64,000 bases of DNA from [Streptosporangium] indianense (GTDB lineage Bacteria; Actinomycetota; Actinomycetes; Streptomycetales; Streptomycetaceae): contig NZ_JAKEIO010000025.1 in NCBI RefSeq assembly GCF_021474405.1, positions 1 through 64,000 on the forward strand, in the 5' to 3' direction. The notes beneath the pieces were generated by a model. That model was given only the letters and a program-made list of their open reading frames with translations, made no database searches and was not told the origin of the DNA. The position numbers and the translations under genes are program-made. Shown here piece by piece: positions 56,373 to 59,677 of this stretch (its first letter is position 1; each line of letters begins with the position of its first letter).

Positions 56373-57980
56373 GTGGATCCGGTGATCATCGTCGGAGCGG
56401 GGCCCGTCGGGCTCACGCTCGCCCTGGCGCTGGCGCGTCAGGAGGTGCCGTGCGTCGTCCTCGACGAGGGCCCGGGCAAGGACGAACCCCGCGCGGCGCG
56501 CACCGTCGTCCTGCGCGAGGACACCGCCGCCCTGATGGAACGGCTGACCGGTGTGCCCCTCGCCGGAGCCGGTGCGCACTGGGCCGGATGGCGGTCGATG
56601 CGGCGCAAGCAGGTGATGCGCGAGGTCGTTTTCGACGGCACCGAACCCGCCCCCCTGCATATCGCCCAGCACGTGCTGACCGGGGCCCTGCGCGCGGCCC
56701 TCGCGGACGAACGGCTCGTCAAGGTCGCCGTGGACAGCCGCCTCGACGGCCTCGAACAGGAGCCCTCGGGCGTGACGGCCCACACCCGCGGCCCCAAGGG
56801 CACGTGGTGGCGCGGCAGTTACCTGGTCGGCTGCGACGGCCCCCGCTCGACCGTCCGCAAGATCCAGGACATCCGCTTCCCGGGCCGTACGGCGGTGGAA
56901 CGTCACGCCGTCGCCGCGCTCCGTACGGAACTGCCCTGGCACGACGAGGCGTTGCTGCACCGCCTGCCGCCCTGGCGCACGTCCGGCCCCTCGGCCGGCG
57001 AAGTCACCGCGCGCCCGCTGCCGGACGGCGTCTGGCGCCTGGACTGGCTCCTGCCGCCCGGCAAGGACCTGGTCACTCCCGAGCTGCTGCTCACCCGCAT
57101 CCGGGAGACCCTGGCCGGCTGGGCGGGTGGCACGACCCCGCCGTACGAGCTGCTGGACACCGGTGTCCACACCGTCCACCACCGGCTGGCCCGGCGCTGG
57201 CGCGCCGACCGGGTGTTCCTCGCCGGGGACGCGGCCCACCTGCTCGGCGCGCTGGGCACGCACGGGCTGGACGAAGGCCTGCGGGACGCCGACAACCTCG
57301 CTTGGAAACTGGCCCTGGCCTGGCACCACGGGCCGCACGAAGCGCTCCTCGACAGCTACCAGACGGAACGCCGGGCGGTCGTCGCCGCCCGGCTCCGCGC
57401 CGCCGACCAGGCGCTGCCGGTGTTGCGCGGCGGTGGAGGGCTGCGCGCCGTCGTGCCCGGCTCCTCCCGGGGGCACGACGCGCTCCTCACCGAGGGCCAC
57501 TTGGGTCACGGCCAGCTCGGCGCGCCGGGGGCGTACGCCGACTCGCCGCTCGCGCCCCAGCAACTCGAAGGGGAGGTCCCCGTCGACACACCGCTCGGAG
57601 CACCGGTCACCGACGTCCGGGTCACCGCGGAGGACGGCACCTTCGTACGGCTGCGGGACCGGCTCGGCCGCGGTGCGCTGCTCGTGGTGCTGATCGCACC
57701 GGGCACGGGCGTGTGGGAGCGCAGGCACTGGGTCAGCGCGGGCATCATGCCGCAGCTGGCGGCGGCGGTCGCTGCGCTGCCGCACCCCGCCGAGCTGCTC
57801 GTCGCGGAGAGCTACCCGGGCGCGGCCGCGCACACGGTGCTGCTGGTGCGACCCGACGGGCACCTCGTCACCGCGCTGGGCGGAGTACGCCCGGCCGATC
57901 TGTACGCGGCGGCGGAGGCGGCCGTCGGCGGTCCGGTGAGGGCACAGGCGGAGGCAGGTGCTGCGGCGGGATCACGCTGA
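56373..57980 (+). CDS. FAD-dependent aromatic-type monooxygenase
   Basis: 535 residues from GTG 56373 (AGGGGGCG upstream); an ATG-started frame from 56235 adds 46 residues lacking similarity. Flavin-dependent hydroxylase of the phenol/rifampicin type: dinucleotide fold VIIVGAGPVGLTLALALARQ, DG motif GCDGPRSTVRKI, GD motif VFLAGDAAHLLGALGTHGLD with EGLRDADNLAWKLA, and a C-terminal thioredoxin-like region (residues 400-520). Substrate unknown; the usual PPxGG after GDAAH is replaced by LLGALGTHG. Downstream dyad at 58003. Confidence 0.85.
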   Translation: MDPVIIVGAGPVGLTLALALARQEVPCVVLDEGPGKDEPRAARTVVLREDTAALMERLTGVPLAGAGAHWAGWRSMRRKQVMREVVFDGTEPAPLHIAQHVLTGALRAALADERLVKVAVDSRLDGLEQEPSGVTAHTRGPKGTWWRGSYLVGCDGPRSTVRKIQDIRFPGRTAVERHAVAALRTELPWHDEALLHRLPPWRTSGPSAGEVTARPLPDGVWRLDWLLPPGKDLVTPELLLTRIRETLAGWAGGTTPPYELLDTGVHTVHHRLARRWRADRVFLAGDAAHLLGALGTHGLDEGLRDADNLAWKLALAWHHGPHEALLDSYQTERRAVVAARLRAADQALPVLRGGGGLRAVVPGSSRGHDALLTEGHLGHGQLGAPGAYADSPLAPQQLEGEVPVDTPLGAPVTDVRVTAEDGTFVRLRDRLGRGALLVVLIAPGTGVWERRHWVSAGIMPQLAAAVAALPHPAELLVAESYPGAAAHTVLLVRPDGHLVTALGGVRPADLYAAAEAAVGGPVRAQAEAGAAAGSR

Positions 57981-58002
57981 CGCCCGCCAGGGGTGACTGG
58001 GC

Positions 58003-58036
58003 TCACTGTCACGCTGCGTCCGCATGGTGACAGTGA
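58003..58036. promoter_or_regulatory. 10-bp dyad just upstream of the cysteine operon promoter
   Basis: TCACTGTCAC (58003-58012) and GTGACAGTGA (58027-58036) are perfect arms separated by 14 bases. The arms are not GC-rich like local terminators, and the dyad ends one base before a -35 hexamer, so it is more likely an operator than the monooxygenase terminator. Confidence 0.6.
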
Positions 58037-58037
58037 G

Positions 58038-58066
58038 TTGACCCGTCCGGGCGGCCGTGGTGTACT
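58038..58066 (+). promoter_or_regulatory. Promoter of the cysteine dioxygenase operon
   Basis: TTGACC (58038-58043), 17-base spacer, TGTACT (58061-58066). Transcription from about 58073 would include the short leader ORF at 58113. Confidence 0.6.
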
Positions 58067-58112
58067 CCGGTGCGTGACCGACACCTGTGTGCGCCTGTGG
58101 CGGAGGGTCCAT

Positions 58113-58160
58113 ATGGACCTCCTCCGCTATGCGGGCTGCGTGTGTCGCCCGTCCTGCTGA
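58113..58160 (+). CDS. Cys-rich leader peptide (attenuator)
   Basis: 15 residues, MDLLRYAGCVCRPSC, too short for usual ORF finding. It has a strong ribosome site (GGAGGG, 58102-58107) and three cysteine codons at positions 9, 11 and 15, the last immediately before the stop. It resembles the actinobacterial putative leader peptides that sense cysteine through ribosome stalling. Located 96 bases upstream of a cysteine dioxygenase gene, an apt target. The RNA between leader stop and 58257 is GC-rich and can fold, but I could not assign the alternative structures by eye. Confidence 0.75.
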   Translation: MDLLRYAGCVCRPSC

Positions 58161-58256
58161 TTTCGCATTCCGCTTTCCTGTGCGCGCGCCGCGCTCTGTC
58201 CGCCGGCCACCGCGCCTCGCTCGCGAACCCTCATCAGGACCTCCAGGACGGCATCC

Positions 58257-58793
58257 GTGTCTGTATCCCCCTCCGCGATCCCCTCTGCCTCCACCGGCCC
58301 GGCTCCCACGCAGGCCGAACTCTACGACTTCGTGCGGCGCACGGCCGCCGACACCGAGCTGATCGACTCCCTGCCGCTCGACCCGGAAGGCCGCACCTGG
58401 GTGCGGCTGGAGGGGCCCGGCGGCAGTGAGGCCTGGCTGATCGGCTGGCCGCCCGGCTCGGGCACCGGCTGGCACGACCACGCCGACTCGGTCGGCGCCT
58501 TTCTGACGGCCTCGGGCGAGCTCAAGGAGAACTCGCTCGCCGCCCGGCTGCCCACGGACGGCTGGAAGACCCTGGAGCTCGCCGAGGACGTGGACCGGGA
58601 GCGCCGGCTGCGGGCCGGCCAGGGCCGCGCTTTCGGCCGGCACCACGTCCACGAGGTACTCAACGAGTCTCCCGACCGGCACGCGATCTCCGTCCACGCC
58701 TATTACCCGCCGCTCCCGCAGATCCGCCGCTACAGCCGCAGCGGCCCGGTCCTGCGACTCGAGCAGGTCGAGCGGCCGGAGGACTGGCAGTGA
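58257..58793 (+). CDS. Cysteine dioxygenase-type cupin
   Basis: 178 residues from GTG 58257 (AGGACGG upstream). Oxidises cysteine thiol to sulfinate with Fe(II) and O2. Cupin motifs: GWHDHADSVGAF supplies two His ligands (near residue 70), GRHHVHEVLNES the third; SVHAYYPPL matches the family Tyr region. Slightly shorter than mammalian CDO, as typical of bacterial forms. Overlaps the rhodanese gene by GTGA, and is preceded by the Cys-rich leader, both supporting a sulfur-metabolism role. Confidence 0.9.
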   Translation: MSVSPSAIPSASTGPAPTQAELYDFVRRTAADTELIDSLPLDPEGRTWVRLEGPGGSEAWLIGWPPGSGTGWHDHADSVGAFLTASGELKENSLAARLPTDGWKTLELAEDVDRERRLRAGQGRAFGRHHVHEVLNESPDRHAISVHAYYPPLPQIRRYSRSGPVLRLEQVERPEDWQ

Positions 58794-59209
58794 GCGCCGC
58801 ACCCGGGCCGACGGGCCACGGCACCCCACCACCGCTCGGCATCGACGAGTTGCTGGTACGCGTCCGGGCGTCCTTCGAGCGGATAGAACCGCAGGAGGCG
58901 TACGAGGCCGCCCGGGCCGGCGACGCGCTCCTGGTCGACATCCGCTACGCCGCCCTGCGCGAGCGGGACGGCCTCATCCCCGGCGCCGTGGTCGTCGAGC
59001 GCAACGAACTGGAATGGCGCCTCGACCCCCAGGGCAGCCACCGCCTCCCCGAGGCCACCGGCCACGCCCTGCGCATCGTCGTCATCTGCAACGAGGGCTA
59101 CGCGTCCACCCTGGCGGCCCAGTCCCTGCACCACCTGGGCCTGCACCGCGCCACGGACCTGGTCGGAGGGTTCCAGGCGTGGCGGAGGGCCGGGTTGCCG
59201 GTGGTGTGA
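58790..59209 (+). CDS. Rhodanese-like sulfurtransferase
   Basis: 139 residues from GTG 58790, coupled to the dioxygenase stop. Single rhodanese domain with active-site Cys in VVICNEGYASTLAAQSL, acidic DIRYAALRERDGLIPGA and the final GFQAWRRAGLPV. The loop CNEGYAS carries Glu/Tyr instead of the basic residues of classical thiosulfate sulfurtransferases. Probably handles sulfane sulfur produced alongside cysteine oxidation. Confidence 0.9.
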   Translation: MSAAPGPTGHGTPPPLGIDELLVRVRASFERIEPQEAYEAARAGDALLVDIRYAALRERDGLIPGAVVVERNELEWRLDPQGSHRLPEATGHALRIVVICNEGYASTLAAQSLHHLGLHRATDLVGGFQAWRRAGLPVV

Positions 59210-59221
59210 GAGCGAGGGCTG

Positions 59222-59677
59222 CTACGGGAGGTAGCGGCGGAAGCCCTCTGCGAGAGCTTGGAAACCGCACGCCTTGTAGAAGGTGTGGACGTACTCGTCG
59301 TCCGCTGCCAGGAGCTGGACCTTGTAGCAGCCCGCCGACTCACCCAGCCGCACGGCAGCCTCCATCAACTGACGGCCGACGCCGCGCCGCTGGAAGGACC
59401 CTGCCACCACGACGTTCTCCACGAACAGGATCGCCCTGCCTCCGCGCGTGAGGTTCGGCAGGACGATGCAGTCCGCCGTTCCGGCCAGGGTTCCGGCGGC
59501 TTCAGCCACCAGGATCGTGCGTCCCCGCTGGCTTGATATGGCTGACCAGATGGCGTCTGCGGACGTCTGGGGCAAGGGTGCGTCGTCCGGGTTCAGCTCG
59601 CTGTACAGAGCGAGCAACGACGGCAGGTCCGCTGCATCTGCCGGCCGCACATTGAACAGCCCTTGGCTCAGTCGCAC
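59222..59677 (-). CDS. GNAT acetyltransferase coupled to recX
   Basis: 151 residues from GTG 59677, three bases after the recX stop, with GAGGGG inside the recX end as ribosome site. GNAT fold: FNVRPADAADLPSLLALYSE, RAILFVENVVVAGSFQRRGV then GRQLMEAAVRL (acetyl-CoA loop QRRGVG), and YKVQLLAADDEYVHTFYKAC. Substrate unknown. Third gene of recA-recX-GNAT, so DNA damage should induce it; convergent with the rhodanese gene. Confidence 0.88.
   Translation of the reverse strand: MRLSQGLFNVRPADAADLPSLLALYSELNPDDAPLPQTSADAIWSAISSQRGRTILVAEAAGTLAGTADCIVLPNLTRGGRAILFVENVVVAGSFQRRGVGRQLMEAAVRLGESAGCYKVQLLAADDEYVHTFYKACGFQALAEGFRRYLP

Follow-up and report, generated by a model that had tools for sequence, protein, structure and literature searches.

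The genes and regulatory elements studied here lie in a 64,000-nt stretch of DNA (the window) with a G+C content of 71%, whose closest named relatives are Streptomyces. A gene for a thiol dioxygenase is followed by one for a rhodanese-domain protein, an arrangement on the same strand that is kept in 72 of 80 loci, and upstream of both lie an inverted repeat, a predicted promoter and a short open reading frame with several cysteine codons (Table 1). Taken in isolation, these features are weak and unremarkable. Short ORFs with at least three Cys codons and an SD-like site number 3 of 566 on the + strand and 0 of 549 on the - strand of the window, which also holds 30 overlapping matches to 10-bp dyads whose loop does not exceed 20 nt. 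It is conservation among relatives that gives the features their weight.

Table 1. Features of the leader and dioxygenase-rhodanese locus, with positions counted in the window
Feature	Position	Strand	Basis
Inverted repeat, probable operator; arms CTCACTGTCAC (58002-58012) and GTGACAGTGAG (58027-58037)	58002-58037	.	
Predicted promoter, TTGACC-N17-TGTACT	58038-58066	+	Sequence; pattern in 103/116 relatives; strict sigma-70 scan negative
Probably leaderless 28-codon leader ORF, VTDTCVRLWRRVHMDLLRYAGCVCRPSC then stop; start GTG 58074	58074-58160	+	NF042934, 36.2 bits; conserved codon 1
Intra-leader hairpin, CGGAG-GGTCC-ATAT-GGACC-TC-CTCCG	58101-58126	+	Sequence; folds; RNAalifold consensus of 111 sequences
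15-codon ORF, MDLLRYAGCVCRPSC then stop; 3' portion of the leader, unlikely to be the true start	58113-58160	+	ORF scan, profile, conservation
Cys22 codon, TGC	58137-58139	+	TGC in 112/114 relatives
Cys24 codon, TGT; NF042934 profile position 19	58143-58145	+	TGT in 168/168 dioxygenase leaders
Anti-SD strand CCGTCCTG, codons 26-28	58149-58156	+	Codon constraint, complementarity
TTCGC, 5' strand of predicted second helix with GCGAA (58223-58227)	58162-58166	+	Sequence
CAGGACCTC, partial copy of SD region; pairs with anti-SD in window folds	58235-58243	+	17/117 loci; fold
Dioxygenase SD region CAGGACGG	58244-58251	+	AGGACGG in 79/80 loci
Thiol dioxygenase, CDO_I family	58257-58793	+	Pfam PF05995, 1.7e-50; structure search
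Rhodanese-domain protein; overlaps dioxygenase stop	58790-59209	+	Pfam, 1.3e-13

An earlier note on this DNA had pointed to a 15-codon cysteine ORF with a strong ribosome site. That ORF exists (58113-58160), while its start and its ribosome site very probably do not hold. The reading frame stays open 5' of the ATG at 58113, and the frame from 58053 to 58157 matches the profile NF042934.1 with an E-value of 3e-9 and 36.2 bits against a cut-off of 27 (35.3 bits when the whole genome is searched), with residues 5' of Met 58113 among those aligned. By this match 58074-58160 is a member of a known family, annotated ‘putative leader peptide’, and it has the Cys of profile position 19 as Cys24. A start at 58113 with its own ribosome-binding site was rejected, as both conservation and the NF042934 match reach farther 5', and the GGAGGG at 58102-58107 falls within codons 10-12 of the conserved 28-codon frame, where it is coding sequence.

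The leader is found 5' of the orthologous dioxygenase gene in 80 of 81 loci (the window's own and those of the top 80 among 506 relatives, L004-L083), L039 being the sole locus without a match. With a looser motif, a Cys leader was recovered in 88 of 108 further loci (L095-L202); the 20 leader-negative loci comprise five distant class genomes, one partial match, seven members of genus g3 and seven others. In total there are 168 dioxygenase leaders, 114 of the class to which the window's leader belongs (RPS class) and 54 of other classes. No Cys leader was found at the second, distant dioxygenase homologue of the same genome (L002). Beyond the dioxygenase, NF042934 matches 11 places in this genome, nine of them above the cut-off, and is present in 79 of 118 class genomes. 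Pfam comparison of the strongest ORF within 900 nt after seven leaders gave a PLP enzyme, an NMT1-like binding protein, a luciferase-type monooxygenase, an SDF-family transporter, a nitrite/sulfite reductase, an FMN reductase and a rhodanese, from which we infer that the leader-associated genes of this genome probably serve sulfur assimilation.

The start of the leader is conserved as well. At codon 1, 89 of the RPS-class leaders have GTG and 22 have ATG (111/114 in total), and the remaining three have one or two additional codons following a GTG or ATG. The -35/-10 pair that had been noticed next to the dyad is indeed there, with TTGACC at 58038-58043, a 17-nt spacer and TGTACT at 58061-58066, placing GTG 58074 about 7 nt past the -10 box. 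Among relatives, the predicted pattern stands 6-7 nt 5' of codon 1 in 103 of 116 loci (the RPS class together with L041 and L058), a distance that is partly built in, since the search pattern allowed only 6-8 nt. A strict sigma-70 scan of 57900-59300 gave no promoter at all, and the -10 box deviates from the S. lividans consensus TAnnnT (accessible text of PMC8079986). Because the conserved GTG or ATG lies just past the predicted -10 box and leaderless transcripts are common in Streptomyces, making up 17% in S. lividans (PMC8079986, same portion), the leader is probably translated without a 5' UTR, with the 5' end of the mRNA at GTG 58074. Additional internal initiation at codon 14 (58113) is conceivable; this codon is ATG, GTG or TTG in 106 of 114 leaders and CTG in 8, and the GGAGG stretch before it is almost invariant. 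The hairpin within the leader (58101-58126) keeps rare codons, with AGG for 102 of 106 Arg11 and CAT in 99 of 114 leaders at His13, and contains the palindrome GGTCCATATGGACC.

A further constraint concerns the choice of cysteine codon. The Cys at profile position 19 is encoded by TGT in every one of the 168 dioxygenase leaders, and by TGT in 79 of 80 NF042934 leaders examined across 55 genomes (39 + 40), in counts where related leaders are not independent; the exception, L091, has Arg there. These 80 leaders come from this genome and its class and are the best-scoring among the matches listed, dioxygenase rows having been skipped in the extra batch; two of the 79 (L093 and L094) do not reach the cut-off, and the window's leader is counted in both sets. 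The other Cys codons of the 79 leaders are TGC in 92 cases and TGT in 19, and in background ORFs, selected with an approximate gene filter, TGT makes up 28 of 135 and 19 of 104 Cys codons (18-21%). The profile cannot have selected the codon, since it reads amino acids only. A literature search that covered few subscription journals found nothing on an invariant TGT.

Downstream of this codon, the last codons of the leader contain CCGTCCTG, the reverse complement of the dioxygenase SD region CAGGACGG. Across 117 loci (the RPS class with L041, L058 and L122 added) and counting G-T pairs, all eight positions pair in 85, seven in 23 and six in 9, and the predicted duplex is -23.6 kcal/mol vs -15.7 kcal/mol for shuffled tails in 114 loci. 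Codon usage in the RPS class is in keeping with a constraint on the RNA, as TCC occupies codon 27 in 111 of 114 leaders and CCG encodes 97 of the 104 Pro at codon 26; the third base of codon 25 varies (CGC 68, CGT 29, CGG 7, CGA 3). Both sides of the helix have changed from T-A to C-G in L135, L149 and L161, perhaps in a single event, and both are altered in L118 given an insertion fitted by hand; the SD side is nearly invariant, and most changes on the leader side are uncompensated. When codons 25-28 were recoded synonymously in 40 loci, 41% of the recodings were as tight as the native sequence, with a native mean of 10.5 vs 8.3. The RNAalifold consensus of 111 sequences consisted of two intra-leader hairpins and one isolated two-pair helix and lacked the SD helix. 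In the window the SD region is immediately preceded by a partial duplicate of itself, CAGGACCTC; a copy of this kind occurs in 17 of 117 loci and may compete for the anti-SD strand.

How the position of a ribosome would bear on this pairing was modelled by blocking the RNA as far as 12 nt 3' of the A-site codon's first base; the accessible part of PMC4833913 quotes a similar footprint. In 57 of the 114 relatives, the mean modelled cost of opening the SD was 13.7 kcal/mol with codon 20 in the A site, 10.9 at Cys22, 6.8 at Cys24 and 6.7 at the stop codon, and the drop from Cys22 to Cys24 exceeded 1 kcal/mol in 45 of the 57. For the window's own sequence the corresponding values are 7.3, 5.6, 6.0 and 6.3 kcal/mol, a nearly flat course that we attribute to competition by the partial SD copy: in the window folds the anti-SD strand pairs with CAGGACCTC and the true SD with the start-codon region. 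In the model, opening that depends on ribosome position is clear in most relatives and hardly seen for the window itself.

Together these observations point to a probably leaderless 28-codon NF042934 cysteine leader that, on balance, probably controls translation of the dioxygenase and rhodanese genes by masking the SD. With no ribosome at the end of the leader, the strand at 58149-58156 would pair with 58244-58251, a second helix and a hairpin rich in G+C would form in the interval, and translation would be low. A ribosome paused with the Cys24 UGU in its A site would cover the anti-SD strand and free the SD, whereas one paused at the Cys22 UGC would leave it closed. Because the modelled ribosome opens the SD at Cys24 or later and not at Cys22, scarcity of Cys-tRNA should raise expression of the operon. 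We hold this model with moderate confidence for the clade and with less for the window's own sequence. The dyad would probably add a separate, protein-mediated control.

The earlier note had expected the opposite sign for a catabolic enzyme. In such a scheme, ample cysteine would let a terminating ribosome open the SD, scarcity would stall the ribosome at Cys5 or Cys22, 5' of the anti-SD strand, with the SD closed, and the dioxygenase would be produced under abundant cysteine. This inverted logic would fit a cysteine-removing enzyme; Cys5 is found in 74 of 114 RPS-class leaders, and in the model the SD is indeed still masked while the A site holds Cys22 or a codon before it, and accessible at the stop. 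The same model, however, also predicts an accessible SD with the ribosome at Cys24. That residue has the rarer codon TGT, Cys22 being TGC in 112 of 114 leaders, and the Pfam-checked genes behind this genome's other leaders resemble those of sulfur assimilation. Unmasking of the SD on stalling is moreover the form of translation attenuation given for cysteine genes of M. smegmatis in the accessible part of PMC13236596 (citing Canestrari), and a ribosome paused at Cys24 that exposes the SD would give the same sign here. We regard the inverted logic, which the model does not support, as unlikely.

Equally improbable, in our estimate, is that the leader acts chiefly on transcription, through Rho-dependent termination in the spacer or through polarity, with the pairing of tail and SD being secondary. 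Rho has been proposed for actinobacterial cys leaders without a terminator (PMC1262725, portion available), and SD masking fails to extend to other leader classes: the tail-SD pairing was not found in the TAAR, PGSR, TAG and CAC classes, and in 16 other family leaders, for some of which the gene start was guessed, the modelled cost falls by at least 1 kcal/mol at TGT in only 2. A single SD-masking mechanism for all NF042934 leaders is thus unsupported. What speaks against an action on transcription is that spacer blocks near the SD and near the stop are conserved in the RPS class, and that a scan of 57900-59300 for intrinsic terminators with a T run found none. Rfam models gave no match at gathering score in 57500-59500, the one hit below that score being Xoo5 inside the dioxygenase gene (18.8 bits vs 50). 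Leaders ending in TAAR (L121, L133-L138) have GCGCGC around the stop and then a matching GCGCGC, forming a strong hairpin over the stop. In that clade, in whose sequences the tail-SD pairing is not seen, a distinct output mechanism may have evolved.

Upstream, the dyad is perfect, as the earlier note had stated, with arms of 11 bp in place of the 10 bp given there, a 14-nt loop (58002-58012 and 58027-58037) and the -35 TTGACC directly 3' of it. The exact-arm pattern is unique to this site in the genome. Arms complementary at no fewer than 9 of 11 positions occur in 36 of 103 relatives vs 0.15% with shuffled arms, and both arms have changed in several lineages. A shorter block, GTCC-N5..7-[GT]TGA, is present in 76 of 114 loci vs 11 of 2280 shuffles. 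Covariation of the arms had also suggested a terminator of the upstream FAD-monooxygenase gene; this was set aside, because the dyad tracks the -35 and the distance to that gene varies, with 77-437 nt between its stop and the leader start in the 30 dyad loci measured. The dyad is likely an operator. Of the proposed combination of initiation control and attenuation, the conserved Cys leader is supported, and the dyad at the promoter may supply the other part. Control residing essentially at the promoter, with the leader as a passive relic or mere feeder of ribosomes, is very improbable: the arms do stay symmetric through two-sided changes in several lineages and keep beside the -35 in those 30 loci whatever the distance to the upstream gene, but the leader is kept far more widely (80/81 loci) than the dyad (36/103) and is under strong codon constraint.

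Leaderless polycysteine short ORFs in mycobacteria were reportedly described by Canestrari et al. in 2020 (10.1111/mmi.14498). Polycysteine leaders, L204 and L207 among them, also score against NF042934 (class cis_reg_atten); these two look like those mycobacterial leaders and lie about 640 nt 5' of a protein that, on inspection by eye, is similar to the rhodanese following L092. The window's leader shares with the family the motif R-x-H-M-D-L followed by Cys and the placement of a small ORF before a sulfur-related gene, and differs in its target, a thiol dioxygenase. As in mycobacteria (Shell et al. 2015, accessible part of PMC4633059), a Cys ORF heads a sulfur operon and is leaderless, in our case by prediction; unlike the mycobacterial leaders, it has no Cys tract, only C-V-C and the last Cys, and it precedes a dioxygenase where they precede assimilation or sulfurtransferase genes. 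Against NF042933, the model of the Ms5788A leader, it scores 16.7 bits, under the cut-off of 45. The actinobacterial cys leaders of Seliverstov et al. 2005 likewise have Cys codons near the stop and no terminator was seen for them; they precede cys operons of Mycobacterium and P. acnes and cbs of B. longum, and the cases in the available portion of that paper (PMC1262725) name neither Streptomyces nor a dioxygenase. The attenuator leaders of S. lividans TK24 are short ORFs, several of them leaderless, before amino-acid genes, and in the accessible text of PMC8079986 none of eight is assigned to cysteine or precedes a dioxygenase. One of them, the metL leader before metNIQ, is called methionine-dependent there and ends in CMCRRMCAF (Table 4); judged by this ending it might be a cysteine leader. 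No published experiment on a Streptomyces NF042934 member was found in a literature search that was thin on subscription journals.

Both genes of the supposed cysteine dioxygenase-rhodanese operon are of the families expected, with the CDO_I fold and family confirmed for 58257-58793 by PF05995 and by the predicted fold; it is the name of the first that is in doubt. A structure model built from 16 sequences (pLDDT 90.6) has as its nearest structure the ergothioneine dioxygenase of Thermocatellispora tengchongensis (8qfp; E 1.4e-11, 29% identity), followed by mammalian cysteine dioxygenase (E 5.0e-9, 23% identity), and sequence search gives the same ranking (4.1e-11 and 1.1e-5). A cysteine substrate argued from Arg at the R60 position was dropped, as by-eye alignment shows that L112 and L128 have Gln there and L126 has Lys. 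With 29% identity keeping the substrate at candidate level, it is possible that a gene which would be annotated as cysteine dioxygenase has a role in sulfur salvage.

Such a role would bear on the sign of the response, for if the enzyme frees sulfur from a storage thiol, its induction by cysteine shortage makes sense. A supposedly catabolic dioxygenase under a leader of the sulfur-assimilation type argues for scavenging, and the substrate of the enzyme becomes a direct question. On the reading proposed here, UGU is decoded by tRNA-Cys through wobble, a slow step, perhaps with a sulfur-dependent modification beside the anticodon. NF042934 leaders might then sense, through a single obligatory UGU and not through cysteine codons at large, the charging or thiolation of tRNA-Cys, the ribosome pausing exactly where it would open the downstream SD. 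In Streptomyces this would turn on the dioxygenase and rhodanese, which under cysteine shortage would obtain sulfur from ergothioneine or a different thiol, a proposal that we put forward as speculative. The fixed TGT, which a change to TGC would alter while leaving the amino acid unchanged, is a clue to how the widespread NF042934 leaders gauge cysteine.
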